A stretch of 64,000 nucleotides of DNA, taken from the NCBI RefSeq assembly GCF_002723975.1, contig NZ_BEWO01000003.1, positions 1 to 64,000 on the forward strand, given 5' to 3'. This DNA is from Gluconobacter japonicus (lineage in GTDB: Bacteria; Pseudomonadota; Alphaproteobacteria; Acetobacterales; Acetobacteraceae). A program made the position numbers and the translations under genes. Under the pieces are notes generated by a model. It was not told where the DNA came from. It saw only the letters and a program-made list of their open reading frames with translations, and searched no databases. The first letter of the stretch is position 1. Each line of letters starts with the position of its first letter. Positions 1-56,236 of this stretch are shown here, piece by piece.

Positions 1-96
1 ATTCCTGATGGCCGACCACTGACGGGAATCGGCTTTCCGGGCATAGTGCCACGAGACCCACGAAAAACGCGGGTAATCGTGCCAGGGTTTCGTCAC
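1..96 (-). CDS. Partial CDS at window edge, unknown product
   Basis: Downstream of the FUSC gene on the same strand, an open frame begins at a GTG (94-96) and runs off the window as MTKPWHDYPRFSWVSWHYAR and onward, 32 residues rich in Trp and aromatic residues. No clear ribosome binding site is visible and another start (ATG at 42-44, different frame) is possible, so both frame and start are uncertain. I do not recognise the family. It lies 18 bases after the FUSC stop and could be co-transcribed with it. Confidence 0.3.
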   Translation of the reverse strand, partial: MTKPWHDYPRFSWVSWHYARKADSRQWSAIRN

Positions 97-114
97 AAGG
101 CGGACAGGAGCCGC

Positions 115-1182
115 TCAGAGACCTTTGGCTGCACCAGCATCATCACGCATGATGACACCAACGGCGCGTTGCAGATCTTCCTTGAACAGGGACATGACAA
201 AGCGCATTTCGGGGCGCGTCTGCTCTTCCAGACGGGGAAGAAGATCAAGGATGTCTTTGTCTTCCGGCTGATGCGGATGACGGTTCTGCTGCCGAACGAG
301 ACGTTGTTCACAGCTGTGAGCCAGGGCACGAAGTGCATGGCTGAGACTTTTATAGAGCGGAACAAGACCCGTATTGCCTGCTGCGCGGCCCGTTGCGATT
401 GCACGAGCCACCAGCATTGTATCGTTCAGGAGCCTTCGCATCAACCTTGGGAGGGCAGCCAGTACCGGGTCACGCTTTTCCAGATCGCTGAAACGCTCGC
501 GCCGCGCCTCTTCAACCGCGCCTTCCAGTTCGATCAGCAGGGTCACGCAGGCTTCATTGCGCTTCTCAATTTCCCGCCAGCTTGTTTCCTGATCCAGCGC
601 GCCATCCAGCAATCCATCAAGCCTCCTCAGCAGACGACCCGACGTGTGGAAAGCCTGCTTCCTGGCACTGCTATGCAGGACGACAAAAGACACCACCAGC
701 GAGACCATGACACCAATCAGAATGGCTGTCAGGCGCGTCACCATAGGCAGGAACGGACTGCCCTGACTGGGAAACAGGTACACGATCATGAGCGTAATGC
801 AGGCAAACCGAAGATTCGTCTGCACTGCAGCCAGAAAAGCGAGAGGCGTCAGTACAATCCAGAAGGACAGCCATTGCTGACCCGTCCAGAGTTCCAGCAA
901 AACAGCGATCGTTCCTGCCACAGCGCCCAGTAACGTCCCGGTAATCTGGTCACGCGCGGTGGCCATCGTCTGGGTAATGCTCGACTGAGTGACGATCAGC
1001 GCCGTCACCAAAGCCCAGATTGTTTCCTGCAAATGCAGAACAAACCCGACCAGCCATGCCGCAGCGATGGAGACCAGAACCCGGATGGTCTGGCGCGTTG
1101 CGGGCCGCATGACCTCGTGCCAGCTCGATCCCCGCGGCGGAACAAGAAGCCACTTCCGCATCAGGCCATTCAAAATTGTCAT
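115..1182 (-). CDS. FUSC/YccS-type inner membrane protein, half-length
   Basis: The product is an integral membrane protein with a run of about five or six hydrophobic segments in its first 170 residues, followed by a soluble C-terminal half rich in charged helices. This is the layout of the fusaric acid resistance / aromatic acid exporter (FUSC) superfamily, although full AaeB-type pumps are nearly twice as long. I chose the ATG at 1182 over a TTG at 1209 that abuts the degP stop. It follows degP on the same strand at very short distance, so the two are probably one transcript. Substrate is unknown. The aaeXA-like fusion genes at 24.2-25.3 kb lack a neighbouring FUSC pump, but a link between the two loci is only a guess. 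Confidence 0.75.
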   Translation of the reverse strand: MTILNGLMRKWLLVPPRGSSWHEVMRPATRQTIRVLVSIAAAWLVGFVLHLQETIWALVTALIVTQSSITQTMATARDQITGTLLGAVAGTIAVLLELWTGQQWLSFWIVLTPLAFLAAVQTNLRFACITLMIVYLFPSQGSPFLPMVTRLTAILIGVMVSLVVSFVVLHSSARKQAFHTSGRLLRRLDGLLDGALDQETSWREIEKRNEACVTLLIELEGAVEEARRERFSDLEKRDPVLAALPRLMRRLLNDTMLVARAIATGRAAGNTGLVPLYKSLSHALRALAHSCEQRLVRQQNRHPHQPEDKDILDLLPRLEEQTRPEMRFVMSLFKEDLQRAVGVIMRDDAGAAKGL

Positions 1183-48957: not shown

Positions 48958-49053
48958 CGCTGATCTATGCTCATGACGACCCACTAAACCATGCTTCGGG
49001 TACAAGTAGACAATAAACGTCCATCTTATTTCATCAAATGAGCGATATGCCAC
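48958..49053 (-). pseudogene. Possible relic of an integrase N-terminus
   Basis: On the minus strand, directly after the segment that repeats the integrase-proximal end of the element, a frame starting GTG at 49053 reads on to RWTFIVYLYPKHGLVGRHE. This resembles the N-terminal pattern of tyrosine integrases, as in YYVRFIIPKDRW of the intact integrase at 54.5-56.0 kb. It runs into the ada end and has no remaining catalytic domain. The assignment is uncertain. Confidence 0.25.
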
Positions 49054-49160
49054 CTTCTCTCAACGAAGGCAGGACCGAGCCATAGCATCTATGGCGACAC
49101 TGGCTTTGGCTAAAGTGTTTATTTTCTTAAGAAAAAGGAGACCTGGTGGAGAGAGTTGGA
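49047..49160. repeat. Left flank repeat / distal attachment site
   Basis: Two blocks match the right end of the element. 49047-49089 matches 56020-56062 at 41 of 43 bases, and 49100-49160 matches 56107-56167 at 53 of 61. The last 21 bases (49140-49160) are identical and include 17 bases of the tRNA-Tyr 3' end, the likely crossover core. The left copy lacks the stretch with three GTGACGC motifs found between the blocks at right. Confidence 0.8.
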
Positions 49161-52152: not shown

Positions 52153-53556
52153 TTGGGCGATGGCCTGACAAATACACACGCAAGAGAACAGCGCCCGTTC
52201 TCTCCTCCATCCCACCAGCATGACCCTGCCGATCTGGAAGCCGCACACTGGCTCTCGCTAGGTCGTGTCCCGGACACTGAAGCTGCCCATGCGCTCGTGG
52301 CCCGCATTGCGGAAGACATTCGTCCCCACCTCGGCAGCCGCACCAAAGCCGCTCTAGGAAACCGTGACAAGGGCAAGGAAAGGCGTGTCCGTGAGACAGG
52401 GATTATCCTCGCCGGGCTTCTCAGAAGAGGTCTGAAAGGCCACTGGTCCGCTGTCAATGAAAGCCCAAGCACATGGTTCTGGAAGGCATCCCGTAAGCTG
52501 CCCGTGAAGCACACAGCCTTTAAGAGCAAGGTCGATGCAATGCAAACGCTGGGCTTGCTAGACCATGTTCCCGGCAAGAGCTTCAAAGGTGCCTTTGGGG
52601 ACTATCAGGGCCATGCTGCCCGTCTGCGTCCGTCCAAGAAACTACTTGAACTCGCGGAGCAGTACGGATGCCTTTCACAAACCGCTGCACAGGATTGGAA
52701 GTTGATAAACCCTGCCCCTGTCGAACGCATGGCAACTCATGAACTGCTGTCCTTCACAACTATTCCACGCAAAAGAAACGGGCGGATAGACCCTGCCAGC
52801 AGAAGCAAAATGGACATCCCGGCTGGCTGTGAAGACCTTCTGGCGTTCATGAAGGCTCTGACAAGTTCCTTGGCTACTGTCGTGTTCACAGGATGTGCGG
52901 AACCTGTCTTTCAGGCCCGCTTCAGTGGAGCGAGAGAGTTTGGTGGTCGCATCTATGCCCAAGGCCCGGACAACTATCAGAACGGCATCAGCAAAGACGA
53001 ACGCCAGCACATTACCATCAACGGAGAGCCCGTAGCAGAACTGGACCTGTCCGCATCGTTCCTGTCCATCGCTTTGGCTCTTCTGAACCAACCTGCTCCT
53101 GAGGGCGATCCTTATGCGCTTCCTGGGCTGGACGAGGCGCACCGCGCTGCCATCAAACAGTGGTTTGTCGTTTTCTGGCAGACTGGAAAAGCGCCCAACA
53201 AATGGTCCGACAAGACACCTCAGGCCATCCGTGACAGCATCCCGCCCACGGACATTACAGGCCCGGCGTTCGAGCGCTATCCGGCCCTGAAGGACATCAA
53301 ATCCATCGTTCCGGAAGCCCTGCTAAAGAGCGTCGAGAAACCCATGAGAAGCTGGGCGGTCGGGCAATATCTGACAGGCGTGGAAGCGGGCATCATGCGG
53401 GAGGCTATGAGTTCCATCATGGAAACAGGCGGCATTGTCCTGCCCGTACATGACAGCCTCATCGTGCCGCGCTCACTAATGGAAATTGCCGGAAAAATAA
53501 TCCAAAGTGCCTACAAAAAACGCCTTCACAAAAAGATCGGAATAAAAATTAGATGA
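52153..53556 (+). CDS. Putative replication protein with PolA-like motifs
   Basis: A 467-residue protein, start TTG 52153 (AAGG nine bases upstream). I do not recognise a named family. The C-terminal half shows, in the right order, motifs like family A DNA polymerases: motif A near Asp298 (PVAELDLSASFLSIALAL), an O-helix-like RAAIKQWFVVFW (Arg331, Lys335) and motif C VLPVHDSLIVP (His433, Asp434). The N-terminal half is helical and basic, with no exonuclease motifs. This would make it an element-encoded polymerase or replicase. It is convergent with the TIR gene (8-base overlap). Confidence 0.5.
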   Translation: MGDGLTNTHAREQRPFSPPSHQHDPADLEAAHWLSLGRVPDTEAAHALVARIAEDIRPHLGSRTKAALGNRDKGKERRVRETGIILAGLLRRGLKGHWSAVNESPSTWFWKASRKLPVKHTAFKSKVDAMQTLGLLDHVPGKSFKGAFGDYQGHAARLRPSKKLLELAEQYGCLSQTAAQDWKLINPAPVERMATHELLSFTTIPRKRNGRIDPASRSKMDIPAGCEDLLAFMKALTSSLATVVFTGCAEPVFQARFSGAREFGGRIYAQGPDNYQNGISKDERQHITINGEPVAELDLSASFLSIALALLNQPAPEGDPYALPGLDEAHRAAIKQWFVVFWQTGKAPNKWSDKTPQAIRDSIPPTDITGPAFERYPALKDIKSIVPEALLKSVEKPMRSWAVGQYLTGVEAGIMREAMSSIMETGGIVLPVHDSLIVPRSLMEIAGKIIQSAYKKRLHKKIGIKIR

Positions 53557-54461: not shown

Positions 54462-56021
54462 CTATAATAAACTGTAGTAAATATTTGTTCTAACCATGTC
54501 AGGGATACCCTTCTCCACCATGCCAAGCACAGCTCGGCTGTACAGGTCCCATCCAAGGTCCTTAGCCGCATAAGTGTTCGAGCCCAGCGCCATGGGCTTA
54601 TGTCCGATCAAATGATCTCGCACCAGTTCAGAGCACTCGGACACCCCATTAGCCAATGCCGTTGCCATGAAGGTGGCGAAGCATCTCCTGAAGCTATGGA
54701 AGTTCACCTCACCATCCGTCTCTCTCCCAAGAACGTCTCTCCGGAAATCCGTGAAGCGCTGGGAAAAGAAATGACTGCGCTTCATTCCTGTTCCTCCCGG
54801 TTTGCACTCAGGGAATAGTGGAGCGTCAACATTCCCCTCCCCGGCTTCCTTGAGGCGTCTGGCAATGATTGGCTGTACAAGAGGATGGAGCGGTATGCGT
54901 CTGACAGAGTTAGCAGTCTTGGCTTCCTCATCGGTCACTTGGATACCCCAAAGTTCTCCGTCAGCCTCGTCCCGGTTGAGAACTCGGCCAACGGTTAGCG
55001 AAGCAAGCTCATTCTGCCTTGCACCAGTCAGCAAAGCGAGACGCATCAGGTCACGGATAGCCGGGCCCCACGCCCATCTGCGTTTCTCATCAGGGTCCGC
55101 TCGCAGGAGAAGGACCAGTTCATCTTCGTTGAAGGGCCTGACCTCAGACTTCTTCTTGCCAGCTTTTCGCTTGAGGCCAGCGGTCGCACCCTGCCATGGG
55201 TTTGGGCCTTTCAGAATGTGCTTCTGGATAGCAAACGTCCACAAACCTTTAAGCGATGATATGCGGCAACTGACTGTCTTTGCACTCAATCCGCGTTCGT
55301 TCAGGAGCCACTCAGAAAAGCCCCCCAAGACCACCTCAGGCACATCCTCGACAATCTGAGCGCGAAGGAAGTTCATGAGGTTTTCAGGTTCCTCACGGTC
55401 CTGAGAATGAGCCAGATAGCGAGAGAAGAGATTAAACGCGGCCTGATCCAACGATATGGCGGAATGACCCACATCGCTCTCCCGATCCTTCATCCAACGG
55501 TCCATCACCAGAGCGAACGGTGTACGGACACCCGTTGCTATCTCCCGGAAGCGGGTCTGATACCTTGCCCCATCCTTCCCCGCATGGTCGAGCTTATGCG
55601 CCCTGCCTTCCAGAAAGCAGTCCATGCCTTCCACAACGCGATCTCTTGGGCTTTCTGAGATGCCGGTATGCTCGTCATAGACGTCATCAGTATCAGAAGC
55701 AGACGCGATCCTTCGCCGGGCCTCCAATGCCTCAGTCAGCATCAGTTCTTCGTCCAGCCAATCAGGCACATCAACCCCATGAAGAGGTGCCAGTCCTGCA
55801 TCCATCAGCTTCCTGTTTAGTTGCTTTCTGATTGCCTCAAGAGCGGCATCACGAAGCCTCAGGGCATCTTTATGCGTGCGTGTCTGGAGCGATTTGAGGA
55901 TGTCTTTCCGGATTCCCGTCCGTGACCCAAGCACCTTACCAGCATCCTGCCAGCGGTCTTTCGGGATGATGAAGCGGACATAATAGAGTCCGTCCCGGTT
56001 AGTCAGATTAGCCATATCCAT
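54462..56021 (-). CDS. Tyrosine integrase next to tRNA-Tyr
   Basis: A site-specific recombinase of about 520 residues. The N-terminal SAM-like domain starts MDMANLTNRDGLYYVRFIIP. The catalytic domain has Arg in LALLTGARQNELASLT, then HSFRRCFATFM (HxxR), HLIGHKP and the nucleophile Tyr in GSNTYAAKDLG. The start could also be TTG 56036 or ATG 56015. It is beside the tRNA at the element's right end, as expected for an enzyme integrating into the tRNA 3' end. Confidence 0.9.
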   Translation of the reverse strand: MDMANLTNRDGLYYVRFIIPKDRWQDAGKVLGSRTGIRKDILKSLQTRTHKDALRLRDAALEAIRKQLNRKLMDAGLAPLHGVDVPDWLDEELMLTEALEARRRIASASDTDDVYDEHTGISESPRDRVVEGMDCFLEGRAHKLDHAGKDGARYQTRFREIATGVRTPFALVMDRWMKDRESDVGHSAISLDQAAFNLFSRYLAHSQDREEPENLMNFLRAQIVEDVPEVVLGGFSEWLLNERGLSAKTVSCRISSLKGLWTFAIQKHILKGPNPWQGATAGLKRKAGKKKSEVRPFNEDELVLLLRADPDEKRRWAWGPAIRDLMRLALLTGARQNELASLTVGRVLNRDEADGELWGIQVTDEEAKTANSVRRIPLHPLVQPIIARRLKEAGEGNVDAPLFPECKPGGTGMKRSHFFSQRFTDFRRDVLGRETDGEVNFHSFRRCFATFMATALANGVSECSELVRDHLIGHKPMALGSNTYAAKDLGWDLYSRAVLGMVEKGIPDMVRTNIYYSLL

Positions 56022-56167
56022 GCCGCCTTCTATCAACGAAGGCAGGACCGAGCCATAGCATCAAGGTGACGCTAGACCAGTGACGCAGCGTTAACCTGAA
56101 GTGACGCTGGCTTTGGCTAAGTGCTTGTTTTTCTTAGGAAAAAGGGGACCTGGTGGAGAGAGTTGGA
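56020..56167. repeat. Right attachment region (tRNA-proximal)
   Basis: Matches 49047-49160 in two blocks, with the 21-base identical core at 56147-56167 overlapping the tRNA-Tyr 3' end. The right copy overlaps the start of the integrase gene. Confidence 0.8.
56066..56107. promoter_or_regulatory. Three GTGACGC repeats, possible integrase arm sites
   Basis: GTGACGC occurs at 56066-56072, 56080-56086 and 56101-56107 between integrase and tRNA, and twice at the element's left end (49207, 49320). Such short direct repeats at both ends suit arm-type binding sites of a tyrosine integrase. This is inferred from pattern and place. Confidence 0.5.
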
Positions 56168-56236
56168 TTCGAACCAACGTAGGCGTACGCCAGCGGATTT
56201 ACAGTCCGCCCCCTTTAGCCACTCGGGCACCTCTCC
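56151..56236 (-). tRNA. tRNA-Tyr (anticodon GTA), integration target
   Basis: On the minus strand the gene begins GGAGAGG and ends CTCTCC plus A and CCA (56151-56153). The anticodon loop CTGTAAA gives GTA, reading TAC/TAT. The long variable arm is typical of bacterial tRNA-Tyr. Its 3' end is the core of the element's attachment site and remains intact. Confidence 0.95.

Follow-up and report, generated by a model that had tools for sequence, protein, structure and literature searches.

A divPolA2-type, family A-like palm protein in a small tRNA-Tyr-integrated element of Gluconobacter japonicus

We analyzed a 64,000-nucleotide stretch of Gluconobacter japonicus DNA (RefSeq assembly GCF_002723975.1, contig NZ_BEWO01000003.1, positions 1 to 64,000), called the window here, in which a mobile element integrated at a tRNA-Tyr gene encodes a 467-amino-acid (aa) protein with polymerase-like motifs. 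We found that this protein is, by sequence homology, a divPolA2, and a family A-like palm is supported for it. The protein family is already known; to judge from the literature searched, what appears new is that tRNA-integrated bacterial elements carry divPolA2 and that it is paired with RNase HI in some of them. We regard as established the family membership, the conservation of the catalytic set, the predicted fold, both ends of the element, the recurring integrase, and the RNase HI adjacency in some relatives. From the neighboring genes in related elements, we propose that divPolA2 may help the element copy itself.

Family membership, catalytic residues, and predicted fold

divPolA2 was named and described by Yutin et al. 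(2024; PMC11348598) from phages, namely, barbaviruses and their relatives. The divPolA2 section of that paper presents a palm without an exonuclease or a known thumb, with an N-terminal globular domain unlike known thumbs. There, the protein is additional to a regular polymerase, is considered a possible RNA polymerase, and is reported to have variable phage neighborhoods and paralogues. Among 211 frames, a profile of 41 bacterial members matched AUR84708 (E 1.7e-35) and the barbavirus protein Barba3A gp035 (E 2.1e-47). Because this bacterial-only profile found these two proteins and nothing else, we identify the window protein, on sequence grounds, as a divPolA2.

A preliminary description of this DNA had suggested a family not widely described. 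This holds in part: the family already has a name, but the section cited describes it from phages. The word divPolA2 appeared in one work only (PMC11348598 and its preprint, PMC11188092), and none of the titles and abstract openings searched pointed to a paper that places divPolA2 in tRNA-integrated elements. The divPolA2 section of PMC11348598 mentions neither tRNA-integrated bacterial carriers nor the pairing with RNase HI, and the passages of PMC12324425 that we drew on concern other elements. No assigned activity for the family was found in the literature searched.

The catalytic residues Asp298 (motif A), Arg331 and Lys335 (motif B), and His433 and Asp434 (motif C) all lie where the preliminary description placed them, in an open 467-aa frame. 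To define conservation, we used 83 nonredundant members, the window protein included. These derive from 140 hit frames, 129 of them near full length; removing copies that shared the same last 250 residues left 96, and removing relatives with at least 80% identity left 83. R266, R284, D298, K335, and D434 occur without exception, and R331, H433, and Y321 (81 members each) and D319 (79 members) are near invariant. Both aspartates and the lysine of family A motifs A, B, and C are thus present in 83/83 members and the arginine in 81/83. Position 411 is D or E in every member, while column 237 is N in 76 of the 83 and Thr in the window protein. Ahead of motif A, G265-R266 and R284 follow the same order as in PolA in the profile alignment. 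That these residues are conserved across 83 members argues that the motif match is not due to chance.

Some genomes contain gene copies split across several frames (L003/L013, L005/L012, and L070); these broken copies were neither joined nor used in the member alignment. L002 and L126, with one stop each inside the match, were entered as the open piece only. AUR84708 (L182, 25469-26761, minus strand), which was modeled by Yutin et al., has Phe-Asp-Glu in motif C instead of His-Asp-Ser; motif C is therefore more variable than the 83 members show.

The preliminary description had proposed profile-profile comparison and structure prediction as checks, and the palm fold is indeed present in the prediction. 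In the structure predicted from 80 of the 83 members (three alignment rows were dropped), D298 lies at the end of strand 292-299, R331 and K335 lie within a helix, and H433-D434 lie at the turn of hairpin 430-432/435-439. Structural comparison, which barely covers residues 1-188 and is effective from about residue 189 on, assigned this model a Pol I-type palm fold. The hhalign profile-profile score was 56.9 with PolA and 40.8 with T7-type RNA polymerase (RNAP), the latter match spanning 48 columns, only around motif C. The family profile also had direct but weak matches to some bona fide PolA. The profile-profile comparison with its controls, the weak direct matches, and the predicted fold together support a family A-like palm. 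The reported lack of an exonuclease motif was confirmed in that 0 Pfam families matched the window protein at E values up to 10; its sole PHROGs match was phrog_4756, of unknown function (E 2.2e-20). We read the window protein as a compact nucleotidyltransferase of the family A fold, with a palm and short fingers and without a recognized exonuclease.

PDB searches with the window protein and with a 39-member profile found no polymerase. Most matches of the profile were weak winged-helix matches to the N-terminal part, 9 of 10 being transcriptional regulators or DNA-binding proteins (E 0.23 to 1.7), with the MarR/PadR-type regulators at E 0.23 and worse. The predicted secondary structure of this part consists of helices 72-93, 107-112, and 120-132 and strands 136-139 and 156-160. 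This pattern and the weak MarR/PadR-type matches suggest that the N-terminal region may be a winged helix.

The window element, related elements, and distribution

The preliminary description called the protein element encoded, and both element ends could be located. Their direct repeats lie 7,007 bp apart, and between them are genes for a resolvase, an HNH endonuclease, divPolA2, a TIR-domain protein, and an integrase, which adjoins tRNA-Tyr (Table 1). An integrase, a target tRNA, and flanking direct repeats, the features of an integrative mobile element, are all present, and the integrase is related to those of other delimited elements. Among the five scanned open reading frames (ORFs) of the window element, we recognized no packaging gene and no cyclase beside the TIR gene of the CAP12/Pycsar type. 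A near-match plasmid search with the whole element gave no match. A second direct repeat of 43 nucleotides (nt), 95% identical, lies at 49047-49089, outside the left end, and at 56020-56062, overlapping the start of the integrase gene; this repeat may be left over from a related element that previously occupied this tRNA-Tyr.

Eleven of 17 other loci scanned have a tRNA, and in 6 of the 11 an end repeat of 17 to 27 nt lies at the tRNA, so that 7 elements, the window's included, are delimited. One profile, derived from 10 proteins with the integrases of 5 of the 7 elements among them, detected an integrase in 7/7 (E at most 4.4e-32), and a serine resolvase was found in 4/7 by one profile of 15 proteins, 3 of the 4 matched resolvases among them. 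Resolvase and Phage_integrase, with nine ORFs each, were also the commonest families among the neighbors of bacterial loci, for which 124 of 154 listed ORFs of 15 loci were scanned; the 323 listed viral-locus ORFs lie outside this set. In the smallest delimited element (L058, 6520-11450, 4.9 kb), the ORFs of at least 80 aa are those for the integrase, a 324-aa protein with no clear Pfam match, a 105-aa product, and divPolA2.

A same-strand RNase HI gene adjoins divPolA2 in L021, L066, L055 (= L007), L067, L135, and L119, with gaps of -117 to 170 nt between the open frames; in L033, it lies 1,365 nt away. The RNase HI genes of L055 and L066 lie inside delimited elements. In five of five genomes tested (L007, L135, L119, L066, and L067), there are two RNase HI genes, one of them beside divPolA2. 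The divPolA2 proteins of L021, L066, and L067 are 49 to 63% identical and the rest are 16 to 22% identical, and thus there are about four independent RNase HI-adjacent lineages. Under a rough Poisson model in which the 83 loci are taken to be independent, the expected value is 0.04 to 0.06.

Counting the window's own genome, divPolA2 relatives occur in 10 of 200 genomes of the same family and in 31 of 385 of the class, 8 of the latter with partial matches only (G207, G340, G360, G438, G518, G525, G527, and G571). The divPolA2 profile matched 27 of 398 genomes of the phylum, again with the window's own, 23 of them in the same class. One of the four matches outside the class is strong, and three are weak matches in frames of 909 to 934 aa; the two of these frames that were fetched are both PolA. 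In G207, G340, G438, and G518, open frames of 455 aa align with the model only in its N-terminal half (8-212 or 62-212), and the remainder may encode a divergent palm or a different domain. In G303, equal-score matches at C14 8239-9264 and 17188-18213, about 9 kb apart, are perhaps tandem element copies.

On viral contigs, the single window protein gave no match, whereas four alignment queries matched 36, 17, 25, and 18 loci in overlapping sets. Phage records numbered 17 with the window protein as the query (E limit 1) and 177, including 115 of Rheinheimera phages, with a phage member as the query. Two IMG/VR contigs carry two divPolA2 loci each (3300041411_000085, L045 and L046; 3300046615_000115, L078 and L115), in agreement with the paralogues reported in the divPolA2 section of PMC11348598. 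We counted polymerase and helicase genes in 30 chosen records (29 viral contigs and one phage). PolB was found in one, that of L018, where a UvsW-like helicase gene lies two genes upstream of divPolA2, and DnaB matches were found in 15, 14 of them above the cut-off. In L104, divPolA2 is followed by Toprim primase-like and DnaB-like genes; this 34-kb record, possibly a fragment, has no match to PF00476 or PF00136. The next-nearest DnaB genes, by their listed positions, lie about 5 to 7 kb from divPolA2 (L042, L044, and L047). In L039, a RepA-type initiator gene lies upstream.

Table 1. Features of the window element, the divPolA2 protein, and related delimited elements
Feature	Position or size	Strand	Basis or remark
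Left end	49096..49160		65-nt direct repeat of right end, 86% identical; last 21 nt (49140-49160) identical
Serine resolvase, 240 aa	49876..50598	-	PF00239, E 1.5e-24
HNH endonuclease, 247 aa	51010..51753	+	PF13392, E 1.8e-10
divPolA2-type family A-like polymerase, 467 aa, TTG start	52153..53556	+	ORF, family alignment, predicted structure
N-terminal part, winged-helix-like secondary structure	residues ~72-160		Predicted structure
Palm/fingers	residues ~250-467		Predicted structure
Arg266 codon (GR stretch ahead of motif A), 83/83	52948..52950	+	Computed from ORF start
Asp298 codon (motif A), 83/83	53044..53046	+	Computed from ORF start
Arg331-Lys335 codons (motif B, RxxxK, helix 328-344)	53143..53157	+	Computed from ORF start
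His433-Asp434 codons (motif C)	53449..53454	+	Computed from ORF start
TIR-domain protein, CAP12/Pycsar effector type, cargo, 281 aa	53549..54394	-	PF10137, E 7.5e-35
Tyrosine recombinase (integrase), 524 aa	54462..56036	-	PF00589, E 1.3e-5, just under its cut-off
Right end (attR)	56103..56167		21-nt identical core 56147-56167 overlaps tRNA-Tyr 3' end
tRNA-Tyr, integration target	56151..56236	-	Rfam tRNA
L054, Roseomonas harenae	8,528 bp		End repeat at tRNA
L055, Neoroseomonas marina	8,090 bp		End repeat at tRNA
L056, Belnapia moabensis	12,473 bp		End repeat at tRNA
L058, Pseudoroseomonas coralli	4,913 bp		End repeat at tRNA
L066, Nitratireductor	9,611 bp		End repeat at tRNA; second 15-nt repeat also present
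L068, Ancylobacter radicis	10,966 bp		End repeat at tRNA

Proposed role and alternatives

We give roughly even chances to the proposal that divPolA2 is an active template-dependent polymerase that uses deoxynucleoside triphosphates (dNTPs) and an RNA primer to copy the excised element. In this model, the integrase would excise the 7-kb element from tRNA-Tyr as a circle, and synthesis by divPolA2 would then start from an RNA primer close to the origin of the element. The RNA would be processed by host enzymes or, in some relatives, by the RNase HI encoded beside the gene, and the circle would be copied before its re-integration or transfer. Polymerization, the dNTP substrate, the RNA primer, and the excision and replication of the element as the template are what we infer here. 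The "minimal replicase" of the preliminary description is graded as plausible only, with regular PolA also encoded in 10 of the 30 viral records.

This PolA count, which together with the one PolB speaks against divPolA2 as the replicase of large phages, is one of several results that weigh against the proposed role or the family A assignment beneath it. Pfam, searched with the window protein alone, gave no match to DNA_pol_A, nor did any of 39 family members match it at E values up to 1. Global hhalign gave no match to RNAP or phage PolA, motif B was out of register with cellular PolA in the profile alignment, and the divPolA2 profile passed HMMER's inclusion threshold for 7 of 24 host PolA, missing most. 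In the window element, neither an RNase HI nor a primase or helicase was recognized, and DnaB adjoins divPolA2 only in L104 among the 15 DnaB-bearing records. Five of the 11 other tRNA-bearing loci show no end repeat, and divPolA2 is in all 7 elements by construction, since they were sought through its gene. Finally, structural matches to DNA and RNA polymerases were tied, and thus the structure does not choose between a DNA and an RNA product.

This tie bears on the strongest alternative, that divPolA2 is a small single-subunit RNA polymerase or primase whose RNA, a primer or an element transcript, is removed or trimmed by the adjacent RNase HI. We consider this a possible but rather unlikely explanation, as the profile score was clearly higher with PolA than with T7-type RNAP and Pfam recognized no RNAP domain family in the window protein. 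It is less likely still that divPolA2 is a repair, gap-filling, or defense-related polymerase carried as cargo and dispensable for element replication. The regular PolA of the 10 viral records, the two gene copies on some contigs (L045 and L046), and the TIR, restriction, methylase, and Vsr genes among the neighbors of bacterial loci would fit such cargo, as would a subthreshold match of the 324-aa protein of the smallest element to the defense protein SduA (E 0.12). However, divPolA2 is one of only four ORFs of at least 80 aa in that element, in which no defense gene was recognized above threshold.

A palm that has lost catalysis and now serves as a DNA-binding initiator would accord with the weakly winged-helix-like N-terminal part and its regulator matches, but we think this very improbable with both catalytic aspartates and the motif B lysine invariant. 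A chance coincidence of motifs without homology, for which the missing Pfam match might speak, is almost certainly wrong in view of the 83 conserved members, the profile-comparison controls, the weak PolA matches, and the structural matches; the controls alone render a chance motif match very unlikely.

Relation to known systems

divPolA2 is related to two groups of textbook enzymes, family A polymerases and single-subunit RNA polymerases, and is found in the class genomes counted above and in many phages. In the bacterial elements, which are small and defined and some of which have an RNase HI neighbor, one could test directly whether its product is DNA or RNA and whether an integrative element of a few kilobases can replicate with its own polymerase. 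With DNA polymerase I (family A, PF00476), from which it has diverged far, divPolA2 shares the motif order, the palm fold, and the GR and R elements before motif A. It differs in having no Pfam match and no recognized exonuclease and in the distance from motif A to motif C, which is 131 residues (median of 83 members), compared with 174 to 178 in cellular PolA, as measured in the 19 of 24 with motifs that fit a search pattern. With T7-type and mitochondrial single-subunit RNA polymerases, it shares the palm fold and the H-D-S of motif C, but the window protein is much shorter than the 7 phage RNAPs compared (802 to 883 aa), and its profile score with them is the lower one.

ColE1-type plasmids borrow RNase HI and a PolA-type polymerase from the host. 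It is conceivable, although doubtful, that the elements are self-contained miniature replicons carrying their own RNase HI and PolA-type polymerase, in which RNase HI would trim an element RNA and divPolA2 would extend it. If so, few elements that bring their own polymerase would be as small as the 4.9-kb form. Like the elements described here, phage satellites of the PICI and PICMI kind are small and site-specifically integrated, with an integrase and few genes; here, by contrast, the replication-type gene encodes a polymerase.

The closest known proteins are the published divPolA2, which are homologous to the window protein over most of its length, including much of the N-terminal part, and are likewise palms without an exonuclease (430 to 435 aa in the two tested). 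Those come from phages, beside a regular polymerase, whereas here divPolA2 belongs to small elements integrated at bacterial tRNA genes, in which an integrase recurs. Some of these elements also have a resolvase or RNase HI.
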